Shown: piece after piece, positions 3,852 through 46,506 of the stretch
Layout of the letters: every line of letters begins with the position of its first letter
Position numbering within the stretch: the stretch's first letter is position 1
NCBI RefSeq assembly: GCF_016862935.1
Contig: NZ_BONX01000012.1
Location: 62,001 to 126,000 of the forward strand
Length of the DNA stretch: 64,000 nt
Origin: Plantactinospora mayteni
GTDB taxonomy: Bacteria; Actinomycetota; Actinomycetes; Mycobacteriales; Micromonosporaceae
Direction of reading: 5' to 3'
The notes under the pieces: model-generated
What the model saw: only the letters and a program-made list of their open reading frames with translations
What the model was told of the DNA's origin: nothing
Databases searched by the model: none
Made by a program: the position numbers and the translations under genes

Positions 3852-4083
3852 CGCGCTCCCCGTCCGAAAGGCGTGTAGAGGCACAGATATATAGCACCAT
3901 GCGGCGTTACCCCGGGGCCCGTGACCACAGTGACCGGTCCTGCTTCCGGCCGTGTGGAGGCTGTTCACGGCAGGTCCGGGCGCCTATCGTGCGATCACCC
4001 CCACAACTGGTCGATGGCTTGGCCGGGTGGCAGGAACGCCCGCGCGACCGACCGGCGCTCGGAGTAGTCCCAAGGAGACAGAG

Positions 4084-7000
4084 TTGACGACCCCCTCGTT
4101 ACCCGCCGCCACCCGCGGTCGGGCGGCACCCCGCCGACGCCTGGCCATCCTCGCGGTGGCCGCCCTCACCGCCGGCGTACTGCCGGTGCTGGCCACCCCG
4201 GCCTCGGCCGCCCCCAGCCAGCCGGCCAACCCGTGGACCCGGCTCGCCGACGGCTCCAGCGCCGCCCGGTCCGCCGGACCGACCGACGTCCACGCCGAGC
4301 GGTTCACCGGGTACGCCCTGGACCGGGCGAGCCTGGCCGCCACCCTGGACCGGGTACCCGAGGAGCGCCTCGGGACTGCTTCGGCCCAGTCCCTGGTGGT
4401 GGCGCTGCCCGCCCCGGACGGCACGTTCCAGCGGTTCGCGCTGGTCGACTCGCCGGTGATGGCGCCCGGCCTGGCCGCCCGGCATCCGGAGATCCGCACG
4501 TACGCCGGCCGAGGGCTGGACGATCCGACCGCGACCGTCCGGGCCGACCTCACCCCGCTGGGCTTCCACGCCTCCGTCCGGTCCGAGCGCGGCGTCTGGT
4601 ACGTCGACCCGTACAGCCGGCAGGACCAGGGCCGGTACGCCAGCTACTTCGTGCGGGACAGCACGAACCCGGACGAGCCGTTCGTCGAGCGGGAGGACGT
4701 GGCGCAGACCGCCGAGGCGCTCGCCGACGAGGTCGGGGCGGCCCCGAGCACGGCCGGTGCCGACGTGACACTGCGGACGTACCGGCTGGCCCTGGTGACC
4801 GACCCGTCCTACGCCACCTACTTCGGGGCGGCGAACGTGACGGCCGCCAAGGTGACGCTGGTGAACCGGGTGACCCAGATCTACGAGGACGAGACCGCGA
4901 TCCGGCTGGTGCTGGTCGACGAGACCGAGAAGACCAACCTGAACACCCCGGCCGAGGCGACCGGGACGAACGGGCCGTGCGGGGCGTCGCCCTGCTACAC
5001 GGCGGCGCAGATCTCCTCCTGCGGCAGCGGCACGCTGAACCGCAACAACATCGTGCTCGGCCAGCTCGTCGGGGCGTCCAACTACGACGTCGGGCACATC
5101 GGGCTCGGTGTGAACGGCGGCGGGGTCGCCGGGCTGGGCGTGGTCGGCGGGGCGAACAAGGCGCGCGGCTGCACCGGCCTGCCGACCCCGGTCGGTGACT
5201 TCTTCGCGGTCGACTACGTCTCGCACGAGATCGGGCACCAGTTCGCCGGCAACCACACCTTCAACGGCACCCAGTGGAACTGCTCCGGCGGCAACCGCAG
5301 CGCCGCCAACTCGTACGAGCCGGGCAGCGGTTCGTCGATCATGGCGTACGCCGGCATCTGCCAGCAGGACAACCTGCAACCGCACAGCGACCCGTACTGG
5401 TCGCAGCGCAGCTACACCGAGATCACCACGTACGTCAGCTCGGCCCGCCCGGCCGTCAACGAGGTGCAGAACGTCTCGCTGCGCGAGTTCGGCACCAACG
5501 GCGACTCGTTCACGCTCAGCTTCGGCGGTGCCGAGTCGGCGCCGATCGTCCGGGGCGGCAACTACAGCGCGGCCGGGATCAAGGCGGCGATCGAGGCGAT
5601 CCCCGGCTGGCCGGCCGGCGCCCTCGTCACCGTCGCGCCGTTCGGCGGCACCGGCCTGCTGGACGACACCGGGTTCCAGGTCACCTTCGCCGGTGGCCCG
5701 GTGGCCGGCGTCAACGTCGGGGCGCTCACCGTCACCAACCTCACCGGCACGGACGGGTTCGTCGGCGAGACGGTCAAGGGTGGCCCGATCGACAACGGCG
5801 GCTGGCAGGTCGCGCAGACCGGCAACTCCGCCCCGGTGGTCACCGTGCCGGCCGCGTACACGATTCCGGTCCGTACCCCGTTCGCGCTGACCGGCAGCGC
5901 CACCGACGCGGACGGCGACACGGTGACCTACCTGTGGGAGCAGAACGACCGGGGCGGGGTCAGCGGCGGCAGTACCGCCGGGACCGCGCTGGTCAGCAAC
6001 ACCAAGACCAACGGTCCGCTGTTCCGGCAGTTCGGTACGGCGGCGATCGTCAGCCCGACCGACACCCTGGAATACCACTCCCCCGGGCTGAACGCGGTCA
6101 GCACCAATCCGACCCGGGTCTTCCCGGACCTGGAGCAGATCGCCTGGAACAACACGAACGCGAAGACCGGCACCTGCCCGGCCGCGCCGGCACCACCGGC
6201 CAGCGGCGGGGCGAGCAACGTGCCGCCGGAGGTCGTCGACTGCTACTCGGAGTTCCTGCCCACCGCCGACTGGGTCGGCTTCAACGGTGACCGGACCATG
6301 CACTTCCGGCTCACCGCCCGGGACGGAAACCCGGGCGCGGGCGGGATCGGCAGCGCCGACACCGCGCTGACCCTGGCCCCGGCCGCCGGGCCGTTCCTGG
6401 TCACCTCGCAGGCCACCGCCGAGCCCCTGGTCGGCGGCACGGCCGTGCCGGTGAGCTGGGACGTCGCCGGCACCGACGCCGCGCCGATCGGGGTCAGCGA
6501 GGTGAAGATCTCGCTCTCCGTCGACGCCGGCAACACCTTCCCGTACGTCCTGGCGGAACGGACCGCCAACGACGGCGCCGAGACGGTGACCCTGCCGAAC
6601 GTGGGCGCCAAGGCTGCTCGGATCAAGATCGAGGCGGTCGGCAACGTCTTCTTCGACCTGAACGACGCCAACTTCGCCCTCCGGGCCACCCCGAAGGTGA
6701 CCTTCACCGGGGGTGACCTGGTGACGGTCCAGTACAGCGACCCGATCCTGCCGGAGGTGCGGGTCACCGCCACCGACCCGGACGGCGGCCCGGGGCAGCT
6801 CACCGCGACCGCCACCGGGCTCCCCGCCGGCCTGCTGTTCCGCAACACGACGCCGTCGGAATCGGAGGAGAACGGCGTGCCCGCCGTCTGGGGAGTCGTC
6901 GGCAACAACCGGGCGGCTCCGGGCGACTACCCGGTGACGGTGACCGTCGCCGACCAGCACGGCCTGGGCGAGACCCTCTCGTTTGTCATCCGGGTACTGC

Positions 7001-7797
7001 CGGAGGCGGCGGAGCTGGCGTACACCGGGGACACGCTGGTCTCGGCGGCCGGTTCGGGCCGGAACGCGGAGGTACTGCTCCAGGCCACCCTGCGGGAGAT
7101 CTCGCCGTACACCGGGGCGGAGCCGTGGCCGGGTGACGTCTCGACCGCCACGGTGACCTTCGCCGCCGGTGGCCGGACGCTCTGCACGGACGTACCCGCG
7201 CCGCTCGACACCGACGACTTCGGATCGGTGGCGAGCTGCACGGCGAGCCTGCCGACCGGCGGCCACGAGGTGACCGTCACGCTCGGCGGCAACTACGCCG
7301 GCAGTACGAAGGCGCGGGTCGAGGTGGCCCGCTCGGACACCCGGGTGGTGATCGGCGGCGGCTCGGTGACCCCGACCAGGTCGGCCGGGGCGTACCCGGT
7401 GGATCCGAAGTCCAAGGTCGACGTCACCGTACTGGTCGCACAGACCCGGCTCGGCGGCACCGGTACGACGATCCTCTCCTTCCGCTCCGAGGGCCGGAAG
7501 TACGAGATCCGGGGCGTCGGGCTCGACTCGTTCGGCGTACGGTCCAACGGCGGCATCGACCACATCGACCTACGTACCCGAGCCGGCCTGTACGACGTCA
7601 CCGACCCCCGCCGACCGGTCGCGGTGGCCACCGGACTCAACCTCCGGATCACCGGTACCGACCGTGGCCTGCTCGGCGGTAGGGACAGTGTCGCGGTCAC
7701 CCTGACCGAGGGCGACCGACTGCTCCTCTCCACCGACTGGACCGGCCTGACCACCCAGGAGATCAACCTCACCACCGGGACGCTATTCGTCCTCTGA
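4084..7797 (+). CDS. Secreted reprolysin-like zinc metallopeptidase, large multidomain
   Basis: 1237-residue exported protease. The TTG at 4084 is chosen as start because AAGGAG ends six bases before it and a signal peptide (RRRLAILAVAALTAG ... ATPASAA) follows directly. A propeptide-like N-terminal region precedes the catalytic domain, whose zinc motif HEIGHQFAGNHTF carries HExxHxxGxxH with a downstream Met-turn segment SSIMAYAGIC. After that come several beta-rich modules of Ig/cadherin type (for example TDADGDTVTYLWEQ and ATDPDGGPGQLTATATGLPAGL), which are usually adhesion or substrate-binding repeats. It ends directly before a long hairpin that may terminate it. Confidence 0.88.
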   Translation: MTTPSLPAATRGRAAPRRRLAILAVAALTAGVLPVLATPASAAPSQPANPWTRLADGSSAARSAGPTDVHAERFTGYALDRASLAATLDRVPEERLGTASAQSLVVALPAPDGTFQRFALVDSPVMAPGLAARHPEIRTYAGRGLDDPTATVRADLTPLGFHASVRSERGVWYVDPYSRQDQGRYASYFVRDSTNPDEPFVEREDVAQTAEALADEVGAAPSTAGADVTLRTYRLALVTDPSYATYFGAANVTAAKVTLVNRVTQIYEDETAIRLVLVDETEKTNLNTPAEATGTNGPCGASPCYTAAQISSCGSGTLNRNNIVLGQLVGASNYDVGHIGLGVNGGGVAGLGVVGGANKARGCTGLPTPVGDFFAVDYVSHEIGHQFAGNHTFNGTQWNCSGGNRSAANSYEPGSGSSIMAYAGICQQDNLQPHSDPYWSQRSYTEITTYVSSARPAVNEVQNVSLREFGTNGDSFTLSFGGAESAPIVRGGNYSAAGIKAAIEAIPGWPAGALVTVAPFGGTGLLDDTGFQVTFAGGPVAGVNVGALTVTNLTGTDGFVGETVKGGPIDNGGWQVAQTGNSAPVVTVPAAYTIPVRTPFALTGSATDADGDTVTYLWEQNDRGGVSGGSTAGTALVSNTKTNGPLFRQFGTAAIVSPTDTLEYHSPGLNAVSTNPTRVFPDLEQIAWNNTNAKTGTCPAAPAPPASGGASNVPPEVVDCYSEFLPTADWVGFNGDRTMHFRLTARDGNPGAGGIGSADTALTLAPAAGPFLVTSQATAEPLVGGTAVPVSWDVAGTDAAPIGVSEVKISLSVDAGNTFPYVLAERTANDGAETVTLPNVGAKAARIKIEAVGNVFFDLNDANFALRATPKVTFTGGDLVTVQYSDPILPEVRVTATDPDGGPGQLTATATGLPAGLLFRNTTPSESEENGVPAVWGVVGNNRAAPGDYPVTVTVADQHGLGETLSFVIRVLPEAAELAYTGDTLVSAAGSGRNAEVLLQATLREISPYTGAEPWPGDVSTATVTFAAGGRTLCTDVPAPLDTDDFGSVASCTASLPTGGHEVTVTLGGNYAGSTKARVEVARSDTRVVIGGGSVTPTRSAGAYPVDPKSKVDVTVLVAQTRLGGTGTTILSFRSEGRKYEIRGVGLDSFGVRSNGGIDHIDLRTRAGLYDVTDPRRPVAVATGLNLRITGTDRGLLGGRDSVAVTLTEGDRLLLSTDWTGLTTQEINLTTGTLFVL

Positions 7798-7826: not shown

Positions 7827-7885
7827 CTGACCTGGACGACAGATGCGCTACCGGCGAGCTGTAGCGCCTCTGTTGTCCAGGTCAG
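7827..7885. terminator. Long near-perfect hairpin after the metallopeptidase
   Basis: Two 25-base arms (7827-7851 and 7861-7885) are complementary except for one T-C mismatch and one G-U pair, with a 9-base loop. It starts 29 bases after the peptidase stop. There is no T-tract, which is common for actinobacterial terminators, but the stem is unusually long and precise for a terminator alone. Confidence 0.6.
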
Positions 7886-7991
7886 GCGGGATGACCGGCT
7901 TGGCACCGCCTGTCCGCTTCGGCGCGCGCCAGCCGGTGATTCCGTGCGTACCAGGAGTTGGACAGCTGGTCCGGCGGGGGCCGGCATCGGG

Positions 7992-7997
7992 TATGGT
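7992..7997 (+). promoter_or_regulatory. Possible -10 box for the DAHP synthase leader transcript
   Basis: TATGGT fits the actinobacterial TAnnnT -10 pattern. The next possible start codon is the GTG at 8005, seven bases downstream, which would make the leader peptide mRNA leaderless. I see no good -35 at the usual distance (TTGGAC at 7958 is too far), so this is tentative. Confidence 0.4.
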
Positions 7998-8004
7998 TCC
8001 GTCC

Positions 8005-8064
8005 GTGGCGCGTTCCTATCGATGGTTTAGTCAGCCGGCTCCGGAGCCGGTGACTCAGCCATGA
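8005..8064 (+). CDS. Putative aromatic leader peptide upstream of DAHP synthase
   Basis: A 19-codon reading frame starting at GTG 8005 (an in-frame ATG lies at 7993) encodes VARSYRWFSQPAPEPVTQP. Tyr, Trp and Phe lie within four codons, and Tyr and Phe use TAT and TTT, which are very rare in this genome. The frame ends just before sequences that can form alternative stems, then a short hairpin with a T-run, then the DAHP synthase gene. This is the layout of a ribosome-mediated attenuator. Corynebacterium glutamicum has a known precedent, the AroR leader upstream of aroF. Function here is inferred. Confidence 0.65.
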   Translation: MARSYRWFSQPAPEPVTQP

Positions 8065-8143
8065 CCTGACGTCACCAAGATCCAGCAAGAGCCGGCTGAA
8101 GCAGGGACATCGTCCCTGCTTTTTTCATGGAAACAGCCGGCTC
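8031..8143 (+). promoter_or_regulatory. Candidate attenuator with intrinsic terminator before DAHP synthase
   Basis: Bases 8101-8107 (gcaggga) pair with 8113-8119 (tccctgc) and are followed by six Ts (8120-8125), a standard intrinsic terminator and a rare T-run in this window. Segment 8031-8040 is perfectly complementary to 8090-8099. The segment 8089-8098 can instead pair with 8134-8143, enclosing the terminator. Bases 8035-8050 form their own palindrome. These mutually exclusive pairings sit directly after the leader peptide's Tyr/Trp/Phe codons. The switching model is inference. Confidence 0.6.
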
Positions 8144-8196
8144 GGCTCCCGGGCGCCGGCCCCGGGGTGGCGGTCGGCAGAGAGGGAGCCTCCACG

Positions 8197-9291
8197 ATGA
8201 CCACCACCGGGATGGGTCGGGTCAGCGACCAGCGCATCGACCGGATCGTGCCGCTGACCACCCCGGCGCTGCTGCACCACGAACTGCCGCTGGACGAGCC
8301 GCTGGCCAGCGCCGTACTGGACGGCCGACGATCGGTCGCCCAGGTGCTCGACCGGGAGGACGATCGGCTGCTGGTCGTCGTCGGCCCGTGCTCGGTGCAC
8401 GATCCGGCGGCGGCCCTCGACTACGCGCGACGGCTGCGGGTGGCGGCGGCCGAGCACGCCGACGACCTGCTGGTGGTGATGCGGGTCTACTTCGAGAAGC
8501 CCCGCTCGACCGTCGGCTGGAAGGGCCTGATCAACGACCCGGGGCTGGACGGCTCCGGCGACGTGAACGCCGGGCTGCGGGCCGCCCGCGCGCTGCTGCT
8601 GGACGTACTCCGGCTGGGGCTGCCGGTCGGCTGCGAGTTCCTGGACCCGATCACCCCGCAGTACATCGCCGACACGGTGGCCTGGGGTGCCATCGGCGCC
8701 CGTACCGTCGAGAGCCAGGTGCACCGCCAGCTCTCCTCCGGGCTCTCCATGCCGATCGGGATGAAGAACCGCCCGGACGGCAGCGTGGGTACGGCGGTCG
8801 ACGCGATCCGGGCCGCCGGGGTGCCGCACGTCTTCCCCGGCATCGACATCTCCGGGGCTCCGGCGATCATGCACACCCGGGGTAACGCGGACTGCCACCT
8901 GGTGCTGCGCGGCGGCCGGGGCGAGCCCAACTACGACGCCGAGTCGGTGGCGGAGTCGCTCTCGCTGCTCCGGGCGGCCACGCTGCCCGAGCGGCTGGTG
9001 ATCGACGCGAGCCACGACAACAGCGGCAAGGACCACCGCCGGCAGCCGGTGGTCGTCGCCGACGTGGCCCGGCAGATGGCCGACGGCCAGCGCGGCATCG
9101 TCGGGGTGATGCTGGAGTCGTTCCTGGTACCCGGCCGGCAGGACCTGGACCCGACCCGGCCGCTGGAGTACGGGCAGTCGATCACCGACGCCTGCCTCGG
9201 CTGGCCGGAGACCGAAGAGGTATTCGCGGACCTGGCGGCGGCGGTCCGGGCCCGGCGGGTGGCGGCACCGGCGGGTACCGCTCTGGGCTGA
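8197..9291 (+). CDS. 3-deoxy-7-phosphoheptulonate (DAHP) synthase, class I
   Basis: 364-residue enzyme joining phosphoenolpyruvate and erythrose 4-phosphate in the first step of the shikimate pathway, in the cytoplasm. Class I (AroF/G/H type) motifs are present: VVGPCSVHDP for PEP/metal binding, RVYFEKPRSTVGWKG, GARTVESQVHRQ, IGMKN, and the histidine- and cysteine-bearing region GNADCHLVLRGG. Length matches the family (about 350-365). The ATG at 8197 is chosen because AGGGAG lies eight bases before it; the upstream in-frame GTG lacks this. The preceding leader suggests control by aromatic amino-acid supply in addition to the usual feedback inhibition of this enzyme class. Confidence 0.95.
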   Translation: MTTTGMGRVSDQRIDRIVPLTTPALLHHELPLDEPLASAVLDGRRSVAQVLDREDDRLLVVVGPCSVHDPAAALDYARRLRVAAAEHADDLLVVMRVYFEKPRSTVGWKGLINDPGLDGSGDVNAGLRAARALLLDVLRLGLPVGCEFLDPITPQYIADTVAWGAIGARTVESQVHRQLSSGLSMPIGMKNRPDGSVGTAVDAIRAAGVPHVFPGIDISGAPAIMHTRGNADCHLVLRGGRGEPNYDAESVAESLSLLRAATLPERLVIDASHDNSGKDHRRQPVVVADVARQMADGQRGIVGVMLESFLVPGRQDLDPTRPLEYGQSITDACLGWPETEEVFADLAAAVRARRVAAPAGTALG

Positions 9292-43968: not shown

Positions 43969-45441
43969 TCAGCGGACCGGGCCGGCCGGGCGGGGATCCC
44001 CGGCCGGCCCGGCGCCGTCCGGGGCCACCTCCTCGGCCCGTGCGGTGAGCAGCTTGTGCACCTGCCGGATGTCCCCGGGGGCGCTGCGCGAGGCGAGCCA
44101 GTACATGATCCCGGTGGGGATGAAGAAGAGCTGGAAGGCGGCGAGCCCGACGGCGAAGTTCAGCGGTGGCGGGAACGCCGAGCGGAGCGCTGCGGCGGCC
44201 ACCCCGATCAGCCCGTTGCCGGCCGCCCGGCCCACCCCGTTGACCAGATTGCCGAGGCTGTAGACCGTACCCCGGTGTTCCGGCGGGTTGACATCGGCGA
44301 TCAGCGCGAACCAGTTCGGTGAGTTGGCCGAGGTGAGGCCGAGCGCGAGCAGGGCGGTGAGCAGGCTGAGCCCGACCGTCGGCTCGGTGAGGACGCTGCC
44401 GAGCACCGCTGCGGCCACCGCGCCGGCACCGGCGCCGTCCGGCACCTCGATCCGGATCGGCACGAAGAAGAGCACCGCGTAGAACGGCACCGCGGCCAGC
44501 ACCCCGACCGCCGCGACCAGGGCCCGGCCCCGGGGGGTACGCCGTTGCGCGGCGTCGCCGACCAGCCCGCCGACGATCGAGAGCACCCCACCGAGCTGGA
44601 ACAGTACGGCGAAGATGCTGCCCACCACCGTGGCGGTGGCCGACGAGTAGCCCTGGGCCTCGGCCCGTTCCCGGAACAGCGCCGGCAGCCAGACCAGCGA
44701 GCCGAAGGCCACCTGCGCGGTGAGCCCCTGGAGGATCAGCCACCGGTTCGTCCAGCCTCGCAGGATCACCGGCAGGTCGGCCCGGCTGATCCGGTAGTCG
44801 TAGTCCCCGCCGACCGCCAGCGCGTCGGTCAACTCCGGCTCGCTCTGGCCGCGCCGGATGTCGTAGGTGAACAGGTAGGCCGCGGTCGCCACCAGGCCGG
44901 CGACGCTGAGCAGCAGGAACGGGCGGCGCCAGTCCTGCGCGCCGAGTACGCCGCCGGCCAGGGTGCCGGCCAGGGTGCCGATGCCCTGGGAGAGCCCCCA
45001 GAAGCTGAGTACCACGCCCCGGCGGCGTGGGCTGACCAGGTCGGTGACCACGGAGAAGCCGACCGCGCCGACCGCGCCGAGCCCGATCGCGGCCAGCAGT
45101 TGCGCGCCGAAGAACGCCAGGTAGGTCGGGGCGAGCGCGCTGCCGGCCGTCCCGGCGGCCCAGAGCAGGGTGCCGAGCATGAGCAGCGGCTTGCGGTTGG
45201 CCCGGTCCCCGACGTACGCCCAGCCGACCGCGGCCACCGCGCTGACCAGGAAACTCGTCGCGGTGACCGCACCGACCGCGCCGATTCCGACGTCGAGGGC
45301 CGGGGCGATGGAGCCGTAGAGCGGTGGCACCAGCCCGATGGCCACGTTGTCCAGCGAGGCGAGCACGACGAAGACGGCGACGCTGTAGAACCGGTGGATC
45401 GGGCCCCCACCTCGGGCGACTCGCTGGCCACCGATCGTCAT
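43969..45441 (-). CDS. Major facilitator superfamily transporter
   Basis: 490-residue membrane protein with about 12 spans. The loop after span 2 (GWAYVGDRANRKPLLMLG) is the MFS motif GxxxDRxGRR variant, and a later SFWGLSQGIGTLAGTLAGG belongs to the antiport motif region. ATG 45441 is preferred to GTG 45450, but neither has a strong ribosome binding site. Substrate unknown. Divergent from the PadR operon, so it may be under PadR control. Confidence 0.88.
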   Translation of the reverse strand: MTIGGQRVARGGGPIHRFYSVAVFVVLASLDNVAIGLVPPLYGSIAPALDVGIGAVGAVTATSFLVSAVAAVGWAYVGDRANRKPLLMLGTLLWAAGTAGSALAPTYLAFFGAQLLAAIGLGAVGAVGFSVVTDLVSPRRRGVVLSFWGLSQGIGTLAGTLAGGVLGAQDWRRPFLLLSVAGLVATAAYLFTYDIRRGQSEPELTDALAVGGDYDYRISRADLPVILRGWTNRWLILQGLTAQVAFGSLVWLPALFRERAEAQGYSSATATVVGSIFAVLFQLGGVLSIVGGLVGDAAQRRTPRGRALVAAVGVLAAVPFYAVLFFVPIRIEVPDGAGAGAVAAAVLGSVLTEPTVGLSLLTALLALGLTSANSPNWFALIADVNPPEHRGTVYSLGNLVNGVGRAAGNGLIGVAAAALRSAFPPPLNFAVGLAAFQLFFIPTGIMYWLASRSAPGDIRQVHKLLTARAEEVAPDGAGPAGDPRPAGPVR

Positions 45442-45516
45442 GTCCGGCACTCAACCAGGATCAGGTAACGGCGGGATGACGGTGCCGTCGGGTGGGGTAC
45501 CCGCCGAAACACTAGG

Positions 45517-45544
45517 TTGAACTCTAGCTAGGGCTTGGTAGAGT
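45517..45544 (+). promoter_or_regulatory. PadR promoter with overlapping operator dyad
   Basis: TTGAAC (45517-45522), a 16-base spacer and TAGAGT (45539-45544) make a good promoter; ATG 45551 lies six bases further, so the message is leaderless. ACTCTA (45521-45526) and TAGAGT form an inverted repeat covering the promoter, a likely PadR autoregulatory site. Confidence 0.7.
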
Positions 45545-45550
45545 ACGACT

Positions 45551-45883
45551 ATGCCTGATCCCCGGATGACACTGCCCACCCGGGCGGTGCTGCGTACCCT
45601 GCTGGAGCACCCGTCGCGCGAGTTCTATGGGCTGGAACTCTGCGCCGCAGCCGGGCTGGCCAGCGGCACCATCCATCCCATCCTGGCTCGGTTGGAGAGT
45701 CTCGGTTGGCTCCGCTCCCGCTGGGAGGATCTGGACCCGCACGAGGCCGGTCGCCCACGCCGGCGTTACTACTCCCTCACCTCGGACGGGGCCGTCCAGG
45801 CCCACCGGGCACTGACTCAGGCGGACGCCCGGGTCGCCAGGCTCGGCGCGCTCCGGCCGGGACTCGCCGGAGGGCAGTCGTGA
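45551..45883 (+). CDS. PadR-family transcriptional regulator
   Basis: 110-residue winged-helix repressor: RTLLEHPSREFYGLELCAAAGLASGTIHPILARLESLGWLRSRWED ... GRPRRRYYSLTSDGA. The C-terminal helix is short, the subfamily-2 build. Start ATG 45551 is set by the promoter. Its stop overlaps the next start (GTGA). Ligand unknown; PadR proteins often respond to phenolics or antibiotics. Confidence 0.9.
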   Translation: MPDPRMTLPTRAVLRTLLEHPSREFYGLELCAAAGLASGTIHPILARLESLGWLRSRWEDLDPHEAGRPRRRYYSLTSDGAVQAHRALTQADARVARLGALRPGLAGGQS

Positions 45884-46506
45884 CCGGGCCGGGGCAGCCG
45901 CCGGAGGCGTACGAGATTACGGTCGGCAACGCCCTGCGACACGCCGACACCGCCGACGAGGTGGTACTGCGGGTCCTCGCCGGCCTGCGCGCTGCCGGCG
46001 GCCCCCGGACCGGCCCGCAGCCGCACCGCACGACGTCGGACTGGCCGCTGCCGCGCCGGATTCCGGGCCTCGACCCCGGCCCCTACGCGCCATGGGCGGA
46101 CCAGCCCCTCGTCCCGGCCGTCCGGGAGGCATCGGCCATCGCCACCAACACCAGCAACTACCTGCGGGGATGGCGGCTCGGCAACGAGGCCGTCCGGGCC
46201 GTCCGGGCTTTCGAGGCCGCGCGGCCGGCGGCTGCCGCAGCCGTGGCCGCCCCGATTCCGCCGCCGGCACTGCCCGGTGTGGTCCGCCGACGGATCGCCG
46301 CCCGGACCGGCGCCGCCGCGATGCGCCTGATCGGCCTCGTCGTACAGGCCCTGCCGGCCGGGGAACGCCCCCGTTACCAGGAGGAGTTCCGGGCCGAACT
46401 GAGCAGGCTGCACGGCCTGCACCAGCTCGGCTACGCCACCCGGCTACTGCTGTCGATGTTCGCGCTCCGCCGCGCGCTGCGGCAGACGCGGGTCGAGGCG
46501 GAGTAG
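45880..46506 (+). CDS. Hypothetical protein co-transcribed with PadR
   Basis: 208-residue protein starting at GTG 45880, overlapping the padR stop. N-terminal YEITVGNALRHADTADEVVLRVLAGLRAAGG and a C-terminal part with RYQEEFRAELSRLHGLHQLGYATRLLLSMFALRRALRQ, which resembles the tail of PadR-linked permease-prefix proteins. The middle is Ala/Pro-rich. Mostly soluble with one amphipathic C-terminal segment. Function unknown. Confidence 0.7.
   Translation: MTGPGQPPEAYEITVGNALRHADTADEVVLRVLAGLRAAGGPRTGPQPHRTTSDWPLPRRIPGLDPGPYAPWADQPLVPAVREASAIATNTSNYLRGWRLGNEAVRAVRAFEAARPAAAAAVAAPIPPPALPGVVRRRIAARTGAAAMRLIGLVVQALPAGERPRYQEEFRAELSRLHGLHQLGYATRLLLSMFALRRALRQTRVEAE

Follow-up and report, generated by a model that had tools for sequence, protein, structure and literature searches.

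The leader preceding the class I DAHP synthase gene of Plantactinospora mayteni is probably an AroR-type, ribosome-mediated attenuator of this enzyme. Comparison of upstream regions establishes its start geometry, a leader ORF with conserved control codons, two RNA helices (A:D and D:F) and a terminator, from which we infer the stalling of the ribosome and the direction of control. All coordinates refer to the window, namely the whole stretch of 64,000 nucleotides that was analysed (Table 1). The downstream gene matches PF00793 with an E value of 6e-83 and TIGR00034 (aroFGH) with 464 bits for a cut-off of 173, in agreement with the preliminary description of this DNA, which had placed a 19-codon frame containing Tyr-Arg-Trp-Phe in front of a DAHP synthase. 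It is the sole class I DAHP synthase match in the genome, the class II DAHP synthase being located elsewhere. The class II gene (L111, minus strand, 2902-2887) has a TACGCT sequence 7 bases before its ATG and may be leaderless itself. In another case (G093:C1), two equal-scoring DAHP synthase copies (45016-46086 and 6736705-6737775) lie near both ends of one 6.74 Mb contig, reflecting either a terminal repeat or an assembly overlap.

Table 1. Features of the DAHP synthase leader region in the Plantactinospora mayteni window.
Feature	Position	Strand	Remarks
-10 box TATGGT, leader promoter	7992..7997	+	read from the sequence
Leader ORF, 19 codons, GTG start to TGA stop, VARSYRWFSQPAPEPVTQP	8005..8064	+	
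Control codons TAT CGA TGG TTT (Tyr-Arg-Trp-Phe)	8017..8028	+	Tyr, Trp and Phe kept in 108/108 family leaders; codons U-ending
Segment A (TCAGCCGGCTC)	8031..8041	+	right after the control codons; pairs with D, or by its core with B
Segment B (AGCCGG)	8045..8050	+	local partner of A; read from the sequence
Hairpin P2 (GGTGACTCAG / CTGA-C-GTCACC)	8049..8076	+	stop codon in loop; predicted fold
Segment D (GAGCCGGCTGA)	8089..8099	+	abuts the terminator; pairs with A or F
Intrinsic terminator hairpin GCAGGGAC/GTCCCTGC + TTTTTT	8101..8125	+	perfect 8-bp stem, ATC loop
Segment F (CAGCCGGCTC)	8134..8143	+	past the terminator; pairs with D across the terminator
Segment H (GGTCGGC)	8172..8178	+	possible partner of F; just upstream of Shine-Dalgarno-like GAGAGGGAG (8180-8188)
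Class I DAHP synthase (aroFGH type)	8197..9291	+	ATG 8197; PF00793, TIGR00034

Seven bases separate the -10 box from the leader GTG, as had been noticed earlier, and RNA polymerase would start at or next to the first base of the leader, whose mRNA is inferred to be leaderless. Among the control codons (TAT at 8017, CGA at 8020, TGG at 8023 and TTT at 8026), the rarity previously attributed to TAT and TTT was borne out in three genes of the window, where TAT accounts for 2 of 65 Tyr codons and TTT for 1 of 66 Phe codons. The GCCGGC core of the first RNA segment starts 8 nt past the first base of TTT. The fold of the 126 bases counted from the leader start (8005-8130) beats 200 out of 200 shuffles (z -3.98). 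The motif CATGAnCTGA (8060-8069 in the window, and also found in relatives) places a stop codon in each of two frames within the loop of P2; a leader with frame-shifting indels therefore still ends at nearly the same place. A simple consensus scan found no sigma-70 promoter at the locus, and no terminator either; the latter's stem and six Ts were read from the sequence, as in the preliminary description, and are backed by covariation in relatives. Further upstream, an imperfect 25-base inverted repeat with a 9-base loop and without T run (7827-7885) sits between the attenuator promoter and the preceding long ORF (3952-7797), which carries a HEIGHQFAGNH motif and presumably resembles a zinc metalloprotease.

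The element is well conserved within the Micromonosporaceae, where a sequence search found the enzyme in 219 of 250 genomes. Among the 109 upstream regions examined (30, including that of the window, plus 19 plus 60), a set confined to the closer matches, above the less similar enzymes with E ~1e-89 to 1e-150 (in genera such as g5, g8, g12, g13 and g17), the leader frame is kept in 108, the exception being L041. Tyr, Trp and Phe are jointly present in all 108 leaders, and the spacing between the -10 box (TAnnnT) and the start is always 6 or 7 nt (108/108). The first 48 leaders were retrieved with search strings read off their own aromatic codons and with no -10 box required, and all 48 have one; the scan used for the other 60 demanded three aromatic residues of any kind as well as a -10 box, and 60/60 passed. 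Tyr is encoded by TAT in 110 of 112 codons and Phe by TTT in 121 of 140, counts to be read knowing that the strings used for the first 48 leaders already contain most of their codons. Judged by reading, the peptide past the control codons is not kept in frame, so that the control codons, and not the whole peptide, are the conserved part. Upstream of the DAHP synthases of L043, L055 and L092, the aromatic cluster is longer or doubled (e.g., WYSWLPTYSWFEW), which would fit a duplication of the control region.

Downstream of the control codons the RNA can adopt several alternative pairings: in the window, 8031-8041 pairs with 8045-8050 or with 8089-8099, and 8089-8098 pairs alternatively with 8134-8143. 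The mutually exclusive stems of the preliminary description are therefore found, since A:B, A:D and D:F exclude one another, but none of them excludes the terminator. The P2 hairpin recurs in relatives as GGTGnCTCAG/CTGAGnCACC, a pattern recognized by reading. Compensatory changes support the helix A:D, the terminator stem and the helix D:F spanning the terminator. The terminator stem is contiguous over 8-13 bp in 108 relatives, with a T run of at least 3 in 105 of them, and covaries among 88 distinct sequences (C-G 46 / G-C 38 at one position, G-C 65 / A-T 22 at another). Inside the family, the cores of A:D and D:F give no evidence because they are invariant; their flanks, in the 88 distinct sequences out of 108, are paired in 56% of cases versus 20-38% when slid for A:D, and in 63% versus 28-37% for D:F. 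One D:F column pair (A-T 80, G-C 13) takes tenth place when all column pairs are ordered by MI, in a ranking that also lists pairs that are not base pairs and that reflect relatedness. In the comparison carried out across the family, the leader frame, the control codons, the -10 spacing and the stems thus proved to be conserved, with compensatory changes, in line with the check that the preliminary description had suggested.

Between families, 80.9% of the A:D cells are paired (59 distinct of 74 sequences), with 105 cells changed on both sides, versus 28-48% for slid controls and a mean of 66% (highest 70%) for permuted partners; this score is biased in favour by own anchors optimised on own pairing and lowered by five misplaced anchors left in (L052, L116, L148, L150 and L269). 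The A:D duplex energy is -31.5 kcal/mol for own partners versus -26.9 kcal/mol across families. For D:F, the energies are -20.0 for own partners, -18.1 across families and -15.4 for shuffled sequences, and the own energy falls within the best 5 of 100 shuffles in 36 of 74 loci, so that this helix is clear in many loci, not all. Support for a third helix, F:H, is weaker than for A:D and D:F: in the 16 loci where F is ACCGGC, GCCGGT is always its best complement within 75 nt (16/16), all in one clade.

Loci of the Rhodococcus, Amycolatopsis and Pseudonocardia types seem to have no U-tract terminator, none having been seen by reading; in them F starts 10-14 bases after the D anchor, and D and F make a simple hairpin, which gives the impression that the terminator has been inserted into the D:F loop. 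The combination of an aromatic leader with a simple D:F hairpin and no U-tract terminator seen was observed at L146, L148, L149, L150 and L158, as well as at L249, L252, L267, L269 and L271. At L296 the terminator finder reported a hairpin with TTT, and families f2 and f22 have short T runs. The automated finder was too strict, listing no terminator in 21 of 48 loci; its misses include L222 of the family, in whose relatives the hairpin is plain, and f22 loci with a hairpin followed by two Ts. Rfam provided no match at gathering score in the window or in 12 relatives, and the six matches obtained for 7950-8260 at E up to 10 were all far under their gathering scores.

Folding models back a switch between A:D and D:F only in part. 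In RNA ending at the terminator, the probability of A:D is 0.48-0.99 without ribosome; placing one at the stop codon gives 0.73-1.0, and placing it at the last aromatic codon lowers the value to 0-0.33. In the read-through RNA, a stalled ribosome gives 0-0.19 for A:D and 0.94-1.0 for D:F, a ribosome at the stop codon 0.07-0.84 and 0.16-0.93 over the groups, and the absence of ribosome 0.02-0.82 and 0.18-0.98. Stalling thus shifts D from A to F in the model, but the genus of the window favours D:F even without ribosome (A:D 0.02, D:F 0.98); the A:B pairing in this genus, also without ribosome, is 0.26 in the terminated RNA and 0.98 in the read-through RNA. The terminator forms with a probability of 0.99-1.0 in every modelled state. 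The control codons are placed in the model such that masking of A frees D. A stall at Tyr leaves A free, and the modelled ribosome footprint would accordingly make Phe and Trp strong sensors and Tyr a weak one, which agrees with the lack of Tyr response reported for AroR.

These observations suggest the following mode of action. RNA polymerase would start at or beside the first base of the leader and a ribosome would take the leaderless GTG as its start. If charged tRNAs for Tyr, Trp and Phe are abundant, it would reach the stop codon in P2, leaving A free to pair with D in a helix stacked on the terminator, and transcription would mostly end at 8125. When Trp or Phe (Tyr less strongly) is short, the ribosome would stall at TAT-CGA-TGG-TTT, its footprint covering the 5' part of A, so that D would be released to pair with F once F is made, a state that would lead to more DAHP synthase. 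Two candidate links may connect the freed D to expression: A:D stacked on the terminator may help the terminator, or D:F may keep F off a pairing beside the ribosome-binding site. D:F may, in the second case, act on translation instead.

A related but less probable scheme, which we regard as possible, would have translation (or Rho) as the regulated step, with the terminator as a leaky unregulated accessory and an ancestral A:D versus D:F switch governing the ribosome-binding site via F:H. The occurrence of D:F both with and without a terminator, the simple D:F hairpin of the Rhodococcus-, Amycolatopsis- and Pseudonocardia-type loci and the changes in step of F and H (16/16 loci of one clade) are consistent with it, as is the action on translation of leaderless short ORFs at mycobacterial cysteine genes (Canestrari 2020, as cited in the accessible part of PMC13236596). 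However, accessibility of the Shine-Dalgarno sequence or ribosome-binding site shows no consistent shift in folding (the D anchor being wrong in 12 of 108 loci), the presence of the terminator hairpin in 108/108 family loci argues for its importance, and AroR is reported, in the available portions of PMC11802643 and PMC4046766, to act on transcription. As a folding prediction, sequestration of the ribosome-binding site was rejected because the shift in accessibility was not consistent.

Classical trp-type attenuation, in which a stall would leave 8055-8060 free to form an antiterminator with both D and the terminator's left arm, seems unlikely. By eye, some g30 members have 9-10 complementary bases out of 10 reaching the left arm (L044, L047 and L080), and the window has six contiguous pairs (TCAGCC/GGCTGA) that stop at base 8099, short of the arm. 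Yet the left arm pairs with upstream RNA no better than shuffles overall, being within the best 5% of shuffles in 3 of 108 loci, all of g30; genus g4 and families f19 and f22 showed no such partner on reading; and in truncated folds the stalled state raises left-arm pairing in no group (D anchor wrong in 12/108 loci). As a general mechanism the classical antiterminator was therefore rejected, since reading by eye, truncated folding and duplex energies against shuffles found it only in part of g30. The attenuator reading of the preliminary description was largely right as to the frame, codons and conserved stems, but the element is not a classical trp-type attenuator, as no antiterminator capturing a terminator strand is conserved. 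Trans action is known for some trp leader RNAs. That the short terminated RNA or its peptide acts here in trans rather than in cis is very improbable: a discrete transcript of ~120 nt with its own ORF is indeed predicted, but the peptide is not conserved in frame past the control codons and the element lies upstream of a pathway gene in the loci read. Still harder to believe is that the three identical palindromic AGCCGGCT copies of the window (8033-8040, 8090-8097 and 8135-8142) are repressor sites in DNA and not RNA elements, a reading that we rejected because in other families A and D are replaced by non-palindromic yet complementary sequences (A GGCTCCGGGTGG with D CCACCCGGAGCC; A TTGGCTCTGGAGG with D CCTTCAGAGCCAA).

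The AroR-type attenuator that we favour extends far beyond the Micromonosporaceae. A covariance model (R1) trained on 27 family leaders detected the element in 29 genomes of a class-wide sample of 394; it was used solely as a search probe, as its RNAalifold structure took the local A:B hairpin and its alignment misplaces parts of the terminator. An enzyme search of a class sample of equal size provided 78 class I DAHP synthase loci. A leaderless aromatic leader precedes 48 of them, compared with 3 hits in 1560 Markov shuffles and none in 78 reverse strands; if the -10 box is not required, the figures become 51 of 78 loci, 58 of 1560 shuffles and 5 of 78 reverse strands. The leader occurs in 20/20 loci of family f2, 17/20 of f22, 3/3 of f1, 2/2 of f39, 2/2 of f6, 1/1 each of f3, f47 and f48, and 1/3 of f29, and in none of the class I DAHP synthase loci of f19 (0/23), f21 (0/1) and f4 (0/1). 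Trp is absent from 9 of the 17 DAHP synthase leaders of f22. A scan without the -10 condition of 23 actinobacterial loci (the actinobacterial part of a set of 80 named loci, whose other 57 come from other phyla) detected an aromatic leader in 19, belonging to Micromonospora, Paractinoplanes, Kribbella, Rhodococcus, Amycolatopsis, Pseudonocardia, Streptomyces, Mycobacterium, Williamsia, Arthrobacter, Glycomyces and Antrihabitans. The same scan found no leader at four loci, namely two of Nocardiopsis plus L154 and L167, but at L154 a WYWRF cluster is visible by reading. In genus g52 the enzyme occurs in 19 of 81 genomes and a leaderless leader precedes it at 16 of 19 loci, all 16 being RFYF; in most of them A GGCTCCGG, D CCGGAGCC and a terminator were recognized by eye, in the same order of elements as in the window.

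The element also precedes a second target, chorismate mutase, at 17 loci, 16 of them from f19 and one (L116) from f22 (L115-L118, L120-L124, L127-L129, L131, L132, L134, L136 and L140; element at locus position ~1501). The target was confirmed by tblastn in 17/17 cases, and Pfam detected CM_2 in each of three target proteins searched, two of which have a fused weak DAHP-synthase-like domain. Chorismate mutase leads to Phe and Tyr, not to Trp, and the codon content of the leaders fits this branch point: Phe is present in 17/17 chorismate mutase leaders, Tyr in 11/17 and Trp in 0/17, whereas Trp occurs in 36 of 45 DAHP synthase leaders outside the Micromonosporaceae (Fisher p 4e-9, a value that overstates independence as the sequences are related by descent). 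Three of the chorismate mutase leaders (L115, L121 and L122) have a single aromatic residue. The nine Trp-lacking DAHP synthase leaders of f22 speak against a strict rule of Trp by target. Tentatively, and with somewhat more confidence than we grant to control of translation or Rho, we propose a class-wide family of attenuators needing no antiterminator, in which A would be the sensor, the partner of D (A or F) the output and the terminator a module in the D:F loop, missing in some clades, the control codons having been retuned with the target (Tyr/Trp/Phe for DAHP synthase; Phe, often Tyr and never Trp for chorismate mutase).

Leader-mediated control by aromatic amino acids has several precedents. 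The pheA and pheST attenuators of Escherichia coli have leaders led by a Shine-Dalgarno sequence and a classical antiterminator. They resemble the element studied here by their Phe-dependent leader control and differ from it in using Phe only, according to the accessible part of PMC11802643. The closest known system, and the one that makes this kind of element already known, is the AroR leader/aroF attenuator of Corynebacterium glutamicum (Neshat et al. 2014), for which the available portions of PMC11802643 and PMC4046766 describe a Phe-Tyr-Phe leader, enhanced transcription under Phe limitation and no Tyr response. As with AroR, the class I DAHP synthase gene of the window is preceded by a short leader ORF in which aromatic codons are clustered, and a Rho-independent terminator lies between the two. 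The RFYF leaders of g52, with similar A, D and terminator, fit the Phe-Tyr-Phe of AroR. The difference from AroR claimed in the preliminary description holds for the codons (Tyr, Trp and Phe, against the Phe-Tyr-Phe and Phe response of AroR), but not for the fold, which is the same in kind, with the same order of elements. The window-type element, unlike AroR as described, comes with a documented D:F helix and reaches many families and a second target gene.

Other actinobacterial leaders are more distant. The trp attenuators of Streptomyces and Corynebacterium share with the window a control-codon leader peptide and a terminator upstream of a biosynthetic gene, but complementary triples link their antiterminator and terminator, whereas no conserved antiterminator accompanies the element of the window; the conserved amino acid pathway structures in that survey are solely those of Trp, Cys and Leu, plus T-boxes for ileS, in the part of the article available (PMC1262725). 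Streptomyces lividans TK24 has eight mapped leaders, for Leu, Trp, Ala, Ile, Met and Thr; as here, they are leaderless short ORFs with control codons, some without a uridine tract after the hairpin, and none stands before a DAHP synthase gene in the accessible text (PMC8079986). The ilvB1 leader of Mycobacterium tuberculosis likewise combines a translated short ORF of regulatory codons, ribosome masking and a Rho-independent terminator, but with branched-chain codons, a stated antiterminator and another target (PMC13236596, consulted in part). In the literature searched, partly available as excerpts, Corynebacterium is the only case of an aromatic leader upstream of DAHP synthase; prior art could exist in an RNA-seq study (Wolf et al. 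2017), cited for attenuators, of Actinoplanes sp. SE50/110, which likewise belongs to the Micromonosporaceae. As far as seen in that literature, the breadth of the family, the clustering of codons for three amino acids, the Trp-free leaders of the chorismate mutase branch, the helix D:F and the absence of a conserved antiterminator appear to be new.

Judging from the upstream regions compared, the leader very probably lets the cell tune DAHP synthase to the supply of end products. Its distribution points to a single leader family that adjusts the entry step of aromatic synthesis in many actinobacteria, so far described, as far as the literature searched, from a single species. The apparent absence of an antiterminator poses a concrete mechanistic question, and the match between codon content and pathway branch point provides a natural experiment in the retuning of attenuators.
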